64,000 bases of DNA, taken from assembly GCA_949710005.1 (NCBI GenBank), contig OX453279.1:21540193-21604192 (forward strand), given 5' to 3'. This document shows positions 82 through 35,490 of this stretch, piece by piece. The first letter of the stretch is position 1. Each line of letters begins with the position of its first letter. A model generated the notes under the pieces. The model was not told the DNA's origin and did not search any database. It saw only the letters and a list, made by a program, of their open reading frames with translations. Position numbers and translations under genes: made by a program. This DNA is from Ricordea florida. Taxonomy: Eukaryota; Cnidaria; Anthozoa; Corallimorpharia; Ricordeidae.

Positions 82-119
82 AATAGTAGTAGTAGTGGCA
101 GTAGTAGTAGTGGCAGTAA

Positions 120-4063: not shown

Positions 4064-4557
4064 ATTGGATTTAGAAGGAAGACTCGATTATGAAAAACTA
4101 AGTTAACTTTCCAACGTGTACTCTTAAGCGCTCGGTAGACGGCTTTTTTGCTGTCTCAAACTGGTACTCAATTCTTCGTATATGTTGGAAGAATTAAAAT
4201 TAAAAAAAAACATCTAGATCCTTCTTCATGAATTCTCCCACTCCGAGGTCTCTTTTTTTAGAGCTTCCTTTTTTTGTATCTAGACTTCTGATACTTATGA
4301 ACGGTATCAAAGCTAACCTGTTTTGGATTGTTGTTGAGCTTGCAGAAAGCACATTGTCATCACTTTACCAGTCTCCCAAAAACATGTTCAAAGAGCTCTG
4401 ATAAATTTGCAGCAAAGAAACCTGTGTTGCACGAAATTAGAAATGTAGCAATCTTTTTTGGTATGAAGAAAGAATAAATGTTAAAACCTCAATATACTTG
4501 GGAAAATCTCGATATTACGCGGTTACTATTGACGTGACGTGACTGCACAAGGGCGTA

Positions 4558-4994
4558 GGGGCCCATTTCTCGAAAGACCCGGCAATTTGCCGGGCCAGGA
4601 AAGCTAGTTTATGATAAGAATATTTACAGAATTATAAACTTGACGGTTTTTAGCTTAAGCGAAGCAGTTATAAGTGAACTTACACGTTGGTCTGGTTTGT
4701 TCGTTAAGAACTGTACAAGTATTCCATAGACTCCTACTTGAAAGTGGAGCTCTGCGCTCGTTTAGCTATCAGGGGTTCGTTTCTCGAGAGTTCCGTTGAC
4801 GGAACTCGAGCTTTATTTTTAAGTCGGATTCTATCGAAGGTTTGCGTAGTTCTTGACGCACGAACCAGTCTCACAGGCAAGTTAACTTAAGGTTGCCTGT
4901 TAAAACAGCAAAACTGCAATTCCCGTTGTAAATATTAGGATCATAAAATAGCTTTCCGGGCCCGACAAATTAGCGGGCCTTTTGAGGAGCGGGC
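4558..4994. mobile_element. Inverted-repeat element, about 440 bp, GGGCC-rich ends
   Basis: The left end (4558-4614: GGCCCATTTCTCGAAAG, then CCGGGCCAGGAAAGCTAG) is the mirror of the right end (4942-4994: ATAGCTTTCCGGGCCCGAC, then GCGGGCCTTTTGAGGAG). Arms are about 55 bp and imperfect. There is no open frame inside; it is a non-autonomous element. Confidence 0.6.
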
Positions 4995-27327: not shown

Positions 27328-27735
27328 TTGGAGGGACCGTCGGCAAAGCACGGAAGAACAGAGTGCAAAGTTAACAAGAGTTACGTTTCATGCAGTGTCC
27401 AAGCATTAAAGCCGACAGCGTATGCAGTGAGTGAGAAGTCAGGGATAATTAAGGAAAACTTGCAATACGTTTACAACGGCGTAGGGCAACGAAAGGACTC
27501 GAGAATGGCCCTAGACGAGGCTTATGTAGAGTTGCTGGAAAAAAGGGCTCAACTACAAAAATCGTTATCGTCCCACAACATCAAATGTGGCTACCAGTCA
27601 ATTAGAAAGTCGCCCCTACACCAAAATCCATCACAACGAGCATCCATTTGTACTGCTCCTCCTACCAGAGGAAGCAAAATTCTGCAAGGGGTGCAGCAAC
27701 AACTTTTGGCACAGAAAGAGGATCGTACCGCATGA
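27328..27735 (+). pseudogene. Fragment of unknown coding sequence fused to the Gypsy element
   Basis: Two overlapping frames are open. The one running 27587-27735 reads SQLESRPYTKIHHNEHPFVL, then LLLPEEAKFCKGCSNNFWHR. The CKGC pair and downstream basic residues look like half of a zinc-binding module, and similar P-F-L-LLP-C-GC segments occur, from memory, in repetitive cnidarian proteins. The coding similarity changes to Gypsy RNase H at about 27738 without a stop, producing a chimeric 360-codon frame. I cannot name the protein. The junction suggests deletion or recombination between two elements. Confidence 0.4.
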
Positions 27736-27737
27736 CG

Positions 27738-29711
27738 GAAAAAATCGAAGCGCTGATCGATATGCCTACACCGCAGAACAAGGAGGATGCACAGCGTCTA
27801 AATGGCTTCGTGACTTACCTCTCGAAGTTTATGCCAAAGCTAGCTGACGTAATGGAGTCAATCAGACGGCTTTCACGCAAAGTTACTGAGTGGCAATGGT
27901 CAGAAGAGCAAGAGGCAGCCTTCCAGAAAGTAAAGAAGCTGAGAACGGAGGCTTCGATGCTATGTTACTATGACCTTACCTGTCAGTTAGAAGTCCAATG
28001 CAATGCTAGTCGGAAGGGACTGGGCGCGGCTCTGATGCAACGCGGACAGCCAATCGCATACATTAGCCGAGCTCTGACTCCGACAGAACAGAGGTACGCC
28101 CAGATAGAAAAAGAGTGCCTGGCTATTGTCTGCGCTCTAGAGCGATTCCATCAGTACACATTTGGTCGACACGTTCTTGTACACAGCGACCATAAGCCGC
28201 TCGAATCGATACTACGAAAGCCCTTAGCAAGTGCACGCCGCAGACTGCAAGGAATGATGATGCGACTACAAAAATATGACGTCACAGTCAGCTACGAACG
28301 TGGCAAGAATATGTTCCTAGCCGACCTGCTTTCAAGAGCATATCTGCCCAAGACTCCAGAACCAGAAGACAAAGAGTTCGAATTTATCAGCATGGCTAGT
28401 TGTGTGCCAATCTTAGATCCAAGACTCGAGGAAATTAGACAGGAAACTCAAGCTGACGAGACAATGCAAATCCTGATGAAAGCGATCCTCCAAGGCTGGC
28501 CAGATGACAAGTCTTCAGTGCCCTCCTTAGCCCTTCCTTACTTCAACCAGAGAAACGAACTGACGGTTCAGAACGGTCTTATCTTCAGAGGCGAACGAGT
28601 GGTCGTCCCGAAGAAACTAAGAGAACTAATGAAGCAGAAAATACACTCCTCCCACATAGGTACAGAAGCCTGCCTCAGACGGGCCAGAGAGTGCATCGTT
28701 TGGCCTGGAATGAGTGCTGAAGTGAATTAACTAGTGGAATCGTGCGAAACGTGTAGGCAGTACGACTGCGCCAAGCCAAAGGAGACACTGAGAAGTACTG
28801 AGGTACCGAAACGACCGTGGGAACGGATCGCTACTGACCTGTTTTCCTACAAAGGCAAGAATTTCTCATCACTGTAGACTATTACAGCAACTTCTGGGAA
28901 ATAGACCAGCTGGCTAGCACAAGTGCGCCTATTGTGGTAACCATGCTAAAGAATCACTTTGCCAGATGTGGGTGTCCTGACACTCTGGTCAGTGACAACG
29001 GCCCCCAGTTTACCTCCCAGGAATTTTCCCACTTCGCGAAGGCCTGGCAGTTCAAACATCGAACAATCAGCCCAGGTAACAGCAAGGCCAACGGGAAAGT
29101 GGAGGCTGCGGTCAAGACAGCAAAGCAGTTACTGAGGAAATCTGACGATATTCATTTGTCATTGCTTGATTACCGCAATACGCCTCAAGGAACAAACACC
29201 AGTCCAGCTCAGCGGCTTATGAGCAGACGAACTAAGACTTTGCTTTCTTCAACAGAAAAGCTACTGAAACCGCAAATCCCGGATACGGAAGAACAGCAAC
29301 GCCTTCTGCACCAACAACAGCTGAAACAAGCACAATATTACAACAAGACCGCTAAAGATCTGCCGAAGTTAGCGATCGGCGACGTGGTTCGTACGATAAA
29401 GAATCACGAGCGCATCTGGCGCAAAGCGACAGTAACACAAAAGGTGGATGACAGTACATCATTGAGACCCCTGAAGGAGGAACTTACCGCCGTAACCGAT
29501 ATCACCTGAGGAAGACCAAAAGACTACTCCGCCCAAGCCAGTTGAATCAATGGTTGTAGCACCCGCCGACAAACCGGTCGACCCTCCCGAACGACCAGAA
29601 CCTGCAGCGTCCTTGACGCCTGCCACTACTCCAGCTCATACGGAAGTCAGCTATAGGCCCACCCGAAACAGGCGACCGCCGTCGTACTTGAAAGACTATG
29701 TGTGTGATTAA
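27738..29711 (+). pseudogene. Ty3/Gypsy pol fragment: RNase H and integrase
   Basis: Gag, protease and most of reverse transcriptase are missing; similarity starts at the end of RT (MPTPQNKEDAQRL). The RT-RNase H connection and RNase H follow (AYISRALTPTEQRYAQIEKE, HSDHKPLESI). The first RNase H catalytic Asp appears changed to Asn (QCNAS). Then come the H2C2 zinc finger (HSSHIGTEAC, ESCETC) and the integrase core with ATDLF, LVSDNGPQF and NGKVEAAVK as the D,D,E residues. The C-terminal domain ends with RPTRNRRPPSYLKDYVCD. Breaks: in-frame TAA at about 28728, a one-base loss near 28862 and a frameshift near 29452. It is an inactive copy. Confidence 0.9.
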
Positions 29712-29854
29712 CTGATTTGAATTGACGCTGTTTTGAACTTTGATTTAACGTCAGGCATTGAGTAAGCGGTATGCTCAACGCTTGGCCGTGTCTAAGAAAT
29801 AGAGGACTTGATCGTTGCTGATTTTACAAGTTGATTAAGGACTTTGATTTCCAA

Positions 29855-29914
29855 AGAACATTTAATTTGACTCACCCAGAACATTTAATTTGACTCACCC
29901 AGAACATTTAATTT
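29855..29914. repeat. 23-bp tandem repeat before the Gypsy LTR
   Basis: AGAACATTTAATTTGACTCA plus CCC is repeated 2.6 times between the pol stop and the purine tract CGAAGGGG that precedes the LTR. It lies in the 3' untranslated part of the element. Confidence 0.9.
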
Positions 29915-30190: not shown

Positions 30191-30656
30191 CCTTAGTATA
30201 TACTAAATTTAAAGGCTATTTCGAGGATGCCGTTAATTTTTTTAATTATGCGTTAACAAGCTTTTATTTTTAAAAAGAAAAAGATGTTAACATTGTTTTT
30301 CAAATTCAGACTGGATTTCGAGCAATTTGAAGAAAAAATGGTAGTAAAAAAATTAAAACAACCAATTTCGAAGTCAATTACAGTTGAAAACAGAAGCTTT
30401 CAGAAAACATGATAGAAAGTTGGCGTTTCGTGCAGCGACGGCATTACAATTGCGATCCGCGTACTATTCATTCCACTGAGTTGGAAAATCACGTGCAGTG
30501 AAACTTAAAAGTTCTCTTTTAAAAATACGATTTCTGCGAAATTTAAATTGGCGAGAAAGTCACATGAGATTAAGTCTTTTACTCTTAGCAGGTAAAATTG
30601 TCAATCCTTTACCTCCGTTTATCTTGAAATCTTGTCAGAATCCAAGATAGCTTTAA

Positions 30657-31185
30657 GACTGAGTCCACGAGAGGACCAGGCAGGTGTGACACAAGCTATC
30701 TCTCCAATTTGGATGAAACTTGGTCAGATTGAAGGTCCCACCAAATAACCCAAGAATACAAAGTGGGTGCAATTTTTAAATTTTCTCTTGGGAGTTAGAC
30801 CACCCCCCCTGTATTTTTGCCCAAAATCCCCAAAATTTCACAAAAACAAACATCAAAAGTAGACATTGCTCCTGGTTATAAAATACAATAAATTTCAATC
30901 CCCTTTCACAGAAATAAAGGCCAACCCTATATCTGTTCATAGCAGTAGTTTCAAGTTATTTGGAATGGCAGGTGGCAATAAAGAGATGTCAGCGTCCACC
31001 CATGTAACGAAAAATTGTGCAATGATACAAATTAGGCCATTTTCCGATTCCAATATCTGTGAAATGCAACCTTCTTTTTTAGAGCTGTTTGCACCACGAT
31101 TCAGACCCATCCTGGGGCTGCTGAAATAGAGAATAAAATGTTTGGCATCTATTATGTTTTGTTTTCAAAAGTCGTCTGAAACACG
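30657..31185 (+). repeat. Left long TIR, with conserved 87-codon frame
   Basis: The TIR contains an inward-facing open frame, 30866-31129, opening MLLVIKYNKFQSPFTEIKAN. The right TIR holds the homologous frame, and both stay open despite many substitutions. Whether it is translated is unknown. Confidence 0.65.
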
Positions 31186-32140
31186 TGACCTGACCTGGTT
31201 CTGTCAATGACAGAAACATCAAATTTAAGAAAAAAAACTTTTCTTGATAAGTTTATGAACGTAATTTCCAAGATAATGTACTTAAGAATGTCTACAGTAT
31301 TATTTGTAGCCTTTAAATCAGGCTGGACGCCACAGTATTCACAAGAGTATTCCTGAAAGTAATGAATTAAAAATAACAGCTGAATTTGACTCGTAGTATC
31401 AGTGTACGAGAAGGAACGGCCCAGTATTTTTAATTCTAGATGTACAATGAGCGCAAAATGAACGATCGTATTCTTGTGTTTTTAAATTACATTTGAATAG
31501 CGACTGGATGATTTCAGGTCACATACTTGACCTTTGATAAATACTAAAATAAAACGCTTACACCACGCTTTGCATGTCAGTACATCGTCACAGGATTTCT
31601 CCCCTCAGATTTATGTTTTTGGCCTTAGCAATGAAGTCCTGCGTTCGTAAAATGTATGACATTCCATTTAAGCCCAAATAAACTCTAAATTATCGCGGGA
31701 ATATGGCTGCATCAAGTATGTGCTGTAATTAATTAAAAGTAAACATGTTTACTTAGTCTGAGAACATGAGCCCGGAGATTTAGCCATTTTCAGTCAGCGG
31801 TAAATTAAAAACGTACGTGGTCGCATACCGCGCAGTATGGGTCGCTGTAGGGAACTTTTGCATGTTTGATCGTATACATTTGAACATTACTATGTTTTAG
31901 TGCCTTTTATAAAATCCTTCAAGCGATTTTTTGGTACAAATTATTGCGTAGCCGGCGCGCGGTCAAAATCGTACGTGTAGCCACTGTCACGCAAGTGATG
32001 TGATGGCATCAGCAGAAAATATCACAGAAAGAAATCGCGAGAAATTCAATGAGTTGGATTTTTCGCGACAAAATCACGAACTCTGTTACTCGTGTAGCTA
32101 CCTCCGCGCGTCGTGCAACTAAAGCACCACTGTTCATACC

Positions 32141-33475
32141 CTACAGTTCAAACTGTCTCCTTATTTCACGCCTCGTGCACATCTCTGCTGCCTCTGCAAA
32201 AAAGTCCTCCTCCTCATCCTGAACAGTACTCGGATCAGCCTGTTCTATGTCTAGTCGGCCACTCCTATACAACACAGACAATCTGCTGAAGTATCGGGCT
32301 ATTTGCTCTGTAGAAAGCCATTCTTCTTTGTTAAATACTTTCTTGCCAGCTTCATCTCGAAGAGTTCTCATCTTACTGCACACATCCACTGCACCTGCCT
32401 TTCTTCCTGTCTCTTCACCTTCCAGGAAAATCCGTTTCAAATGTGCCTCTACTTTATCGGTAAAGCGTGTTGCCTTTCGGGATGTCTTTAATGCCCATCC
32501 CTTTGAGATCTGACAAGTGGCATCAGTAACAGCTGTTTGTGAGCTAGAAGCTGTTTCTTTGTGTAAGTAGCGCCTCGTAACCTCTTTGCACATACCAGCC
32601 CATTTCTTCTTTACGACGTCATAAATCGTTTCTCACTCTAATTTAACAAGATGTTTCCCCGCATCGAGGTGTTTCTGCAGATTTTTAAAAGACTGGTATG
32701 TCTTTGTACATCCTTCTTCAGGTCAGGTGAAATAGGTCTGCGTGGCTTCATCAGTGGATGAATCTTCAACAGACTGTTGAGTGCTTTGTTGGGGGTGCTC
32801 ACACTCAACCCTCCCTGTCACGGACCTAAACACACCAACATCCTCTCGTGGTGTACTGAAGGGCTGCACGACGTGGAGACCGGTAGGTCCCTGGGGGGTC
32901 CCAAATCGCTTCACCTGCGTTGATGTGAACAACTTTCCAGGGCCCACATTATAAGCCCTCCACATTCGCAGACCTCCATCTTCAAAGCTAAAATTCGTCA
33001 GAGCCTGAATACCGGACATCGTGTGCTTCTTCATTGTTTGGTTAGACTCCTGTACCTTCACAACTGCTGCATGGCACCCTTTAACACCACCACAGGAATC
33101 AATCGCAGCCTTTATATCCCTAGCACTTGTGATGTCGTGACCTTCATTTATATAACGTCGCATATGGCCTTTTAATGCAGCGATTCTTCTATCACAGATG
33201 TCCTTTGCATATTTCCAGGTTCGCTCCTCTCTCCGGCTTACCTCTGTGATCCCCATGAAGCGGGTGGGCACATTTTCTTCCTGGTCGCCAAAATGTTCCA
33301 AGTTCAGCTCGGTGTCTTGGACATATTGTCATTTTACTACCATCTTCGTTAAAATGACCGGTTCGAGCGAGGATCAAATCTTTCTCTGTTAAAACACTAG
33401 TCTGAGACACTTTCACTGTTCTTAGATGAGCCTTGATATCTTTTTGACATGACGACAGGGGGAAAATTCGGTGAC
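32141..33475 (-). pseudogene. Broken zinc-finger / helix-turn-helix-like gene inside the TTAA element
   Basis: From the 5' side (about 33475, after TCGCTTTCCAG, a good 3' splice site) the frame reads HRIFPLSSCQKDIKAHLRTV, then ICPRHRAELGTFW and KCAHPLHG, a possible zinc-binding C-H-C-H cluster. A middle part follows in a shifted frame (ALTNFSFEDGGLRMWRAYNV). Then comes a clear C2H2 zinc finger at about 32705-32640 (EEGCTKTYQ, LQKHLDAGKH). The C-terminal part is SKGWALKTSRKATRF, FTDKVEAHLKRIFLEGEETG and WLSTEQIARYFSRLSVLY; its ending resembles a homeodomain-like helix-turn-helix. Breaks: frame change near 33250, a small deletion just before the finger at about 32720, and an in-frame TGA at about 32638. 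Comparable proteins are, from memory, abundant and uncharacterised in corals. No catalytic motif is evident. Confidence 0.6.
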
Positions 33476-34449
33476 CCCTGGAAAGCGACGTGAAATGTCA
33501 CACCTGTTTGTTGAAAAAGCTTCAAAAGAGCAAGAAAGTGAAGCCATAGTTCGCTTTGATATGTTGCACCAGAAAAGGTCTCATCAATAAGAAATGCAAA
33601 ATGTAATCTGTTGTGAAATCTATGAAACGAGAAATCACGTGCATTCCAAAGTAACTACATCACGCTAGATCATCTTGTGTCTTACATTGCTGATGTATAA
33701 AAACAAGGCAATGTACAATGAAGTACAAATCTTATCTGAAGGTTGAATTATTAAGTTATTCAATAAACGTTTCCAGTTATCAAAAAATAAATTCAAGGTG
33801 GTATTTGCTACAAAAGATTTCAACTTAAGCTGAAGTACATTCACCGCTGACAAAGATCTCGGGCTGATGTTCCCACGATCAAACAGTCAATTTGTACCTG
33901 AGCAAGATGCAGCTTTAAACAACATGTTTAAATTCAATTTGATTTTTCGGTGAGAAATTGCAATAGATAAACCATTTTGTAAGTTTGGGGGACTTCGTCA
34001 GTTCATATAATAATTTCTGTTGAAGTTTACCGCCGAGGATCGACGTAGTCCAAAAGGCAGAGCGTGGACTACGTGCAAGACTGATGCAAGTTCTTGTTCA
34101 TTTTACAAATTATATGAGGCAAAAATGTGGCCCTTGATCATTCAGTCGGCATTCAAATGTCATCTACTAAACACAAGATGTTCATCTTGGGTGCACTATT
34201 CACTTTAAATTAAAATATCTTGATCATTCGTTTTTGTATATGGTTAATTCGAGTCCAATTTACCTGCTAGTCACCATCAATTCAAGGGATATTTGGATGC
34301 ATATTTCCTTCAGGTTGACTTAAATGCTGCAAATAATAACTGCAGGCAATATTTAATTTTCTTGGACTTAACGTTCATTTACTGATCATTTGATGTCTTT
34401 TTTTCATAGTTTTCTTGTTTCCACCTTTGCTGGAAACAGTTTCAAAACA

Positions 34450-34978
34450 CATGGTTCAAACGGTTTTTGAGGCGAAAATATAACAGATGCCAAAAATGTT
34501 ATTTTCAATTTTAGCAGTCCATGGACATGTGTGAACCGTGATGAAAAAATTTCTGAAAAAGAAGGTTGGACTTTATAGATATTGGGATCGCAAAACAACT
34601 TAATTTGTCTGACTGCATAATTGGTTGTGACATGGGTGGACGCTGACATCTCTTGATTGGCACCTGCCGTTCCAAATGACTTGAAACTACTGTTATCAAT
34701 AGATATAGGGTTGGCCTTTATTTCTGTGAAAGGGGATTGAAATTCATTGTATTTTGTAACCAGGAGCAATGTCTACTTTTGATGTTTGTTTTTGTGAAAT
34801 TGTGGGGATTTTGGGCAAAAATACAGGGGGGGTGGTCTAACTCCCAAGAGAAAATTTAAAAATAGCACCCACTTTGTATTCTTGGGTTATTTGGTGGGAC
34901 CTTCAATCTGACCAAGTTTCATCCAAATTGGAGAGATAGCTTGTGTCACACCTGCCTGGTCCTCTCGTGGACACGGTC
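34450..34978 (-). repeat. Right long TIR, with conserved 121-codon frame
   Basis: Mirror copy of 30657-31185. Its inward-facing frame 34769-34404 opens MLLVTKYNEFQSPFTEIKAN and continues past the end of the left-arm frame. There are about 30 residue differences over the shared 87 codons and no stops in the shared part. Confidence 0.65.
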
Positions 34979-34982
34979 TTAA

Positions 34983-35490
34983 CGCCGTTTTTTCTGTGAT
35001 TGACGTCCACTAAAATTAAACTTTGTGCGACTCTTTTGAAGGCCGTGGGTCGCAGGTTATTAATAAAGTATGGAAACATTATGGACCGTGTTTATCGAGT
35101 GCGTTTTTAGGCAACACCCAGTAATTATTAATAGAGCTTGCACGTTATCAGCGAGATCCCGCATTGGCAGGTAGACCACAAAATAACCTGTTTGGTTTCA
35201 GTTAATTAATCTGTAAGAAATATGTCGCTTTTTTGACCAGTCTATTCAAGACGGCTCTTGCTTTTAGTACTAGCTGCTTTATGTTCACGTTAATGATTAA
35301 GTATTTTTTGGCTATCGAAGATCAATAATTGAAGATGCATAAAAACTATGAAGGGACAGGAAGAACCGAAAGCAGAAGAGATGCGAGATGCTTTTGGTTT
35401 TTTCAATATTTGATCTTCATAAATTTTATTTACACGAATAAAACCTGAAAAAAAAAAAAAACCGAAGATACGTTTGGTCAGGAGCCCTGA
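34983..35490. other. No gene seen
   Basis: AT-rich, with a poly(A)-type run at about 35448-35461 that may be the end of a short retrotransposed sequence. No coding frame supported. Confidence 0.4.

Follow-up and report, generated by a model that had tools for sequence, protein, structure and literature searches.

A TTAA-flanked element of Ricordea florida is very probably an internally deleted copy of an 8.8-kb DNA transposon, mobilised in trans

The 4.3-kb element described here is very probably a non-autonomous element derived by internal deletion from an 8.8-kb TTAA cut-and-paste DNA transposon, and one that has been moved in trans. The deleted copies have the same borders as the longer elements of the genome, of which they are derivatives, TTAA is duplicated at two of the insertions, and the gene of the longer parent is open. 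The gene that the element carries is the broken remnant of a transposase and not cargo. In the mechanism that we propose, the predicted DDD transposase of the parent would bind the terminal inverted repeats (TIRs), cut at the 5'-GA ends and insert the element at TTAA, and the deleted copies, which keep both TIRs, would be mobilised by the protein of a full-length parent. A reading of the whole genome in this way accounts for a transposon in which no transposase is visible; alongside the parent, the same genome holds deletion copies of three classes, with their repair fillers, and two recent insertions that lie 84 kb apart.

Borders and parts of the element

The window is the whole stretch of 64,000 nucleotides that was analysed (C8:21540193-21604192; G+C 39%), taken from a genome of 538 Mb in 48 contigs. 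GFP matches number 61 in this genome (106 candidates, all scored), 57 of them on contig C11, which together with the G+C content would suggest an anthozoan host. The element occupies positions 30657-34978 of the window (4322 bp), and the TTAA that the preliminary description had placed outside both mirror ends is found exactly there, at 30653-30656 and 34979-34982. The arms, described earlier as alignable for about 530 bp, run over 30650-31187 and 34448-34985 (538 nt, 88% complementary), with a weaker homology that extends to 31320 and 34316 (674 columns, 84.4%, E = 0.0). As had also been reported, no transposase is visible inside; none is intact in this copy, and the gene carried is broken. 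The features are listed in window coordinates.

30653..30656, no strand: left TTAA target-site duplication (read in the sequence; TTAA outside 53 of the 54 ends in 27 copies; paralogous empty sites of L017 and L030, two other copies)
30657..31320, plus strand: left TIR, the outer ~350 bp near-identical to the right arm, the inner part diverged
31923..31927, minus strand: scar of a second, 42-bp deletion, common among the 27 copies only to the window copy and L015
32141..33208, minus strand: transposase relic that starts shortly ahead of the third predicted catalytic Asp and runs to the C-terminus; the first two Asp are missing
32276..32500, minus strand: conserved C-terminal helix-turn-helix (HTH)/homeodomain-like region (GWALK...QIARYFSRLS), conserved in the five-member alignment A1
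32651..32731, minus strand: C2H2 finger remnant, its first Cys codon a stop in the window copy, with a further stop after the finger
33201..33206, minus strand: breakpoint at which 4.4 kb were deleted internally (1783 / 6211 in the L009 element), with AAAGGA microhomology
33207..33547, minus strand: transposase exon 1 relic, N-terminal CxxH..C..H zinc-binding-like part, frameshifted (tblastn, translation)
34316..34978, minus strand: right TIR (arm alignments, bin profile)
34979..34982, no strand: right TTAA target-site duplication (read in the sequence; TTAA at 53 of 54 copy ends)

Exon 1 of the full-length copy L009 matches the window by tblastn at 33547-33201, in two pieces, and the translation from the ATG ends early. 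The longer relic is 95.5% identical to L009 exon 7 over 355 aa and contains in-frame stops at 32723-32725, within the finger, and at 32633-32635. The zinc-finger cargo gene of the preliminary description therefore survives as a finger remnant, but one that lies in a pseudogene fragment of the transposase. Likewise, the suggestion that this C2H2/HTH-like protein might itself be the enzyme is right in so far as it is part of the predicted enzyme, but the window holds a broken C-terminal piece in which only one of the three predicted catalytic aspartates is left. The parental form of the finger gives a weak zf-C2H2 match (E 0.091, residues 933-954), and the conserved region closer to the C-terminus may be of HTH or homeodomain type. 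AlphaFold, run on a 150-aa open reading frame of the window as a single sequence, reached a low pLDDT of 44.7.

Copies in the genome and the target site

The preliminary description had proposed a genome search with the outer part of the TIR for further copies, for TTAA at both ends and for a longer member with a DDE/DDD transposase; copies with deviant borders or without TTAA were to count as a refutation. With the outer 204 bp as the query, 40 matches were scored of 112 candidates, and all 40 are explained by 27 copies, namely the window copy and 26 others; as copies were picked by their likeness to the window TIR, older ones are under-sampled. The refuting outcome did not occur: the same border was found throughout, with TTAA directly outside 53 of the 54 ends; L009 alone deviates, with TTTT at its right end. 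By length, 14 copies including the window copy form the window class (4322-4372 bp), L020 (4344 bp) has a different deletion, three copies (L027-L029) measure 4.9 kb, and L024 (7.2 kb) is a window-class copy with a 2.8-kb insert. The longer member is represented by eight copies of 8676-8837 bp (L009-L011, L030-L034), against 19 deletion copies in this sample.

Empty sites were sought by joining the flanks of a copy with a single TTAA and comparing the joined sequence with the fetched DNA and then, for L017 and L030, with the whole genome. Among the fetched copies a match spanning the junction was obtained for L017 only, whose joined flanks align with an uninterrupted repeat inside L024 (319 of 353 columns). 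Genome-wide, all 132 nt of the joined L017 flanks were matched at 39 of the 40 places scored (314 candidates), the fortieth covering positions 6-132, and the joined L030 flanks were matched at 100% over 300 nt at all 40 places scored (1786 candidates). Because these matches run uninterrupted through a single TTAA, TTAA was duplicated upon insertion in both L017 and L030, the two copies that were searched genome-wide.

Two observations on these copies may be added. L030 sits in a repeat with at least 40 identical 300-nt places, three of which (C1:42185816, 42188271 and 42190706) are ~2.4 kb apart, and this repeat is seemingly very young and abundant. L017 (4369 bp) is terminated on either side by a sequence of the left type, a state that conversion of one end by its opposite could have produced.

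The full-length parent and its predicted transposase

The eight full-length copies differ from each other by 0.26-0.66%. A gene model built on open frames and splice-site sequence gives seven exons with GT-AG borders and a protein of 1128 aa, and this gene is open throughout in four of the eight copies (L009, L011, L030 and L033); it is broken by a stop at residue 1105 in L034 and by frameshifts in L010, L031 and L032. The parental family is large and, because eight full-length copies differ by no more than 0.66% and four of them have an open gene, probably also recently active. Intron 4 of L009 contains, at about 4540-4640 of the element, a stretch that by eye is tRNA-like and SINE-like.

The parental protein can be aligned with four paralogous frames of its own genome, two of which (L036 and L038) are copies of one family with 98.6% identity. 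In the test of residues, L041 was substituted for L038, giving five sequences from five loci. D654, D738, D779 and K786 are invariant in all five, in the arrangement D-(82..85)-D-(40)-D-x6-K. In DDE enzymes a D-D-D/E pattern is accompanied by a lysine in the final helix, and the invariant aspartates and lysine of the parental protein resemble that arrangement. The protein is a predicted DDD transposase with a putative RNase H fold. The alignment further shows what reads as a zinc-like cluster ahead of the first D, as well as a C2H2 finger and a stretch that may be homeodomain-like.

In Pfam, the L009 model protein gave nothing significant, with three families at E ≤ 10 of which the best was at 0.064. 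Ten families turned up for the five members of A1, none of them in more than one member, and even the best, SAP (E 0.0015) and PHD_Oberon (E 0.0048), were weak; no Pfam transposase family was matched by the L009 model or by the five members. NCBIfam returned two families at chance level and no transposase family. Among PDB sequences, the 192-aa frame of the window found matches only at E 0.15 or worse, the full profile A1 only four weak C2H2 matches, and the transposase core A2 no match at E ≤ 10. When A1 was run against viral_contigs and prokaryote genome_contigs, 24 and 96 stretches, respectively, fitted the pattern and none was confirmed by tblastn. With a transposase that Pfam does not recognise, automatic annotation may miss the family or call its members host zinc-finger genes.

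Related subfamilies

A 290-aa transposase core finds 137 matches in the genome with 39-99% identity (430 candidates, 135 scored), a number of matches and not of copies, as the copies of the present family are themselves included and a single copy can be counted by more than one exon. Subfamily B was traced in two copies (7416 and 7423 bp) with TIRs of about 750 bp (91-92%), TTAA and GAGCTTC ends, and subfamily D in one copy (7209 bp) with TIRs of about 510 bp (71-76%), TTAA and GAGT ends. TTAA, 5'-GA and long TIRs (0.5-0.75 kb) therefore occur together in all three subfamilies with traced ends; around the frames of the paralogs L035 and L037 no TIR was found in the 7 kb examined of each, so that the count of these border features is three of five examined. 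Since distant subfamilies have the same border features, TTAA, 5'-GA ends and long TIRs go with the enzyme in the three that were traced. The core also lies within open frames of 2484 aa (C2:18995580) and 2294 aa (C5:16610289), which are possibly fusions or domesticated genes.

Deletion derivatives and recent movement

In the window copy, parental position 1783 is followed directly by 6211, so that 4.4 kb are gone, including the first two predicted catalytic aspartates, and AAAGGA (6 bp) is present on both sides of the window-class junction. L020 joins 1073 and 5574 with a short repeated filler, and L027-L029 join 2069 and 6121 with a filler, made up in L027 of two segments of the parent in inverted orientation. 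Given microhomology at one junction, repeated filler at a second and inverted templated filler at a third, the deletions look like the outcome of failed gap repair after excision, a course that would agree with known transposon biology.

Ac/Ds belongs to another superfamily and has another target site than the present element. In Ac/Ds-type pairs of autonomous and internally deleted elements, the derivatives keep their ends and depend on the autonomous partner (PMC3260210). The window-class copies, which retain their ends and would rely on an autonomous partner, are alike in this respect.

The relic is interrupted after its residue 189 by a stop that the 14 window-class copies share with L024 and the three 4.9-kb copies, and a further stop in the finger occurs in the window copy, L012 and L015. 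The frameshift in exon 1 is identical in the three copies that were read (window, L013 and L027); in L020 the start codon of exon 1 was not found. Because the stop and the exon 1 frameshift are common to deletion copies, their ancestor was probably a full-length but dead element that was already moving in trans.

The 14 window-class copies (L024 with its insert left out) diverge by 0.11-0.76%. The window copy and L015, 84 kb apart, have five differences in 4322 bp and share the same extra 42-bp deletion, and no similarity was found in about 600 bp of each of their flanks. Near-identical copies in unrelated flanks point to recent movement in trans, and the deleted form has inserted independently more than once. 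Movement in trans, one of the readings offered in the preliminary description, is the best explanation, and the longer member that it proposed to look for, with a predicted DDD transposase, has been found.

The step in arm identity

The preliminary description had noted that the identity of the arms falls inward. The fall is real, but it takes the form of a step after the fifth 70-bp bin and not of a slope: in the window copy, identities between left and right arm in successive bins are 0.97, 0.99, 0.99, 0.96, 0.90, 0.76, 0.73, 0.66, 0.68 and 0.69. All 13 copies profiled (of 27) show 0.89-1.00 in the first five bins and 0.71-0.76 in the next two, and the step is inherited, not created in the window copy. 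In subfamily B, 0.88-1.00 is kept through the first seven bins (490 bp), and subfamily D has no step, with 0.62-0.73 over the first nine bins. Because the length of high identity varies by family, these profiles favour an origin of the step in an old tract of conversion rather than in a functional stretch of set length.

Alternative explanations and classification

Very long arms with a step in identity might also be expected of a segmental inversion or foldback formed without any transposition. We give this practically no weight and have rejected it, as the 27 copies lie at different sites with the same borders, and for two copies there are empty sites with a single TTAA. It is also very improbable that the element is moved by a piggyBac transposase of the same genome. 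Such genes are abundant, with 116 matches to PF13843 scored of 1071 candidates, a result that also serves as a control for this model, but the eight full-length copies carry another gene, PF13843 is absent at E ≤ 10 from the matches of its model protein, the ends are 5'-GA with TIRs of 0.5-0.75 kb in three subfamilies, and the distant relatives of the parental gene lie in elements with the same border features. On these grounds the piggyBac-type enzyme, to which the TTAA hallmark cited in the preliminary description would point, is not supported. piggyBac has three aspartates, a likeness to our predicted enzyme in addition to the TTAA duplication, whereas the very long TIRs and the C2H2 and HTH-like C-terminus set the present family apart, as do the 5'-GA ends and the missing PF13843 match. 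Many of the PF13843 matches, it may be noted, are one 656-aa frame with equal score. Another possibility concerns not the movement but the product of the deletion copies, which might be a trans-dominant repressor, in the manner of KP from the P element of Drosophila. The window-class and 4.9-kb copies do keep stretches of both the N- and the C-terminal zinc-binding-like parts, and deletion copies exceed full-length ones in the sample. We nevertheless regard such a repressor as improbable, given the stops and exon 1 lesions described above: the widely shared stop after residue 189, the extra finger stop in three copies, the frameshift in the window copy, L013 and L027, and the start codon not found in L020.

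The class of the parent is a separate matter. The Sola3 group of the Sola superfamily combines TTAA duplication with a DDD transposase. The present family shares with it TTAA, a predicted DDD core and an animal host, a likeness of described features, and by such features Sola3 would be the known group that fits best. That the parent is a Kolobok transposon is unlikely. Kolobok elements have a TTAA duplication and 5'-RR...YY-3' ends (PMC9587614), and for Xenopus elements of 6.8-13.9 kb are listed, with a THAP domain 'usually' present in Kolobok (PMC6004289). TTAA, 5'-GA...TC-3' ends that fit 5'-RR...YY-3' and the length of the elements agree with this assignment; against it, no THAP match was found in Pfam (the L009 model at E ≤ 10, the five A1 members at E ≤ 1, with the N-terminus covered only in the L009 model), the third residue is D and not E, and no C/DxxH was seen between the second and third residues when the alignment was read by eye. 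It is unlikely, finally, that the transposase family represents a superfamily not yet described, as would suit the undescribed system for which the preliminary description had named the element its best candidate. Such a superfamily would be marked by TTAA, 5'-GA ends, TIRs of 0.5-0.75 kb, a DDD core preceded by a zinc-like cluster and, at the C-terminus, a C2H2 finger with a homeodomain-like module. No published description recognisable as this family was found in a search of open-licence papers.

Sequence beside the element

To the left of the element, the window contains frames on the plus strand at 27648-28730 and 28934-29509 with RNase H and integrase matches (RT_RNaseH, E 1.3e-29; rve, E 5.9e-9), which we read as Gypsy-like. 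Between these frames and the element, at 29843-29914, a 23-nt unit is present in three tandem copies.
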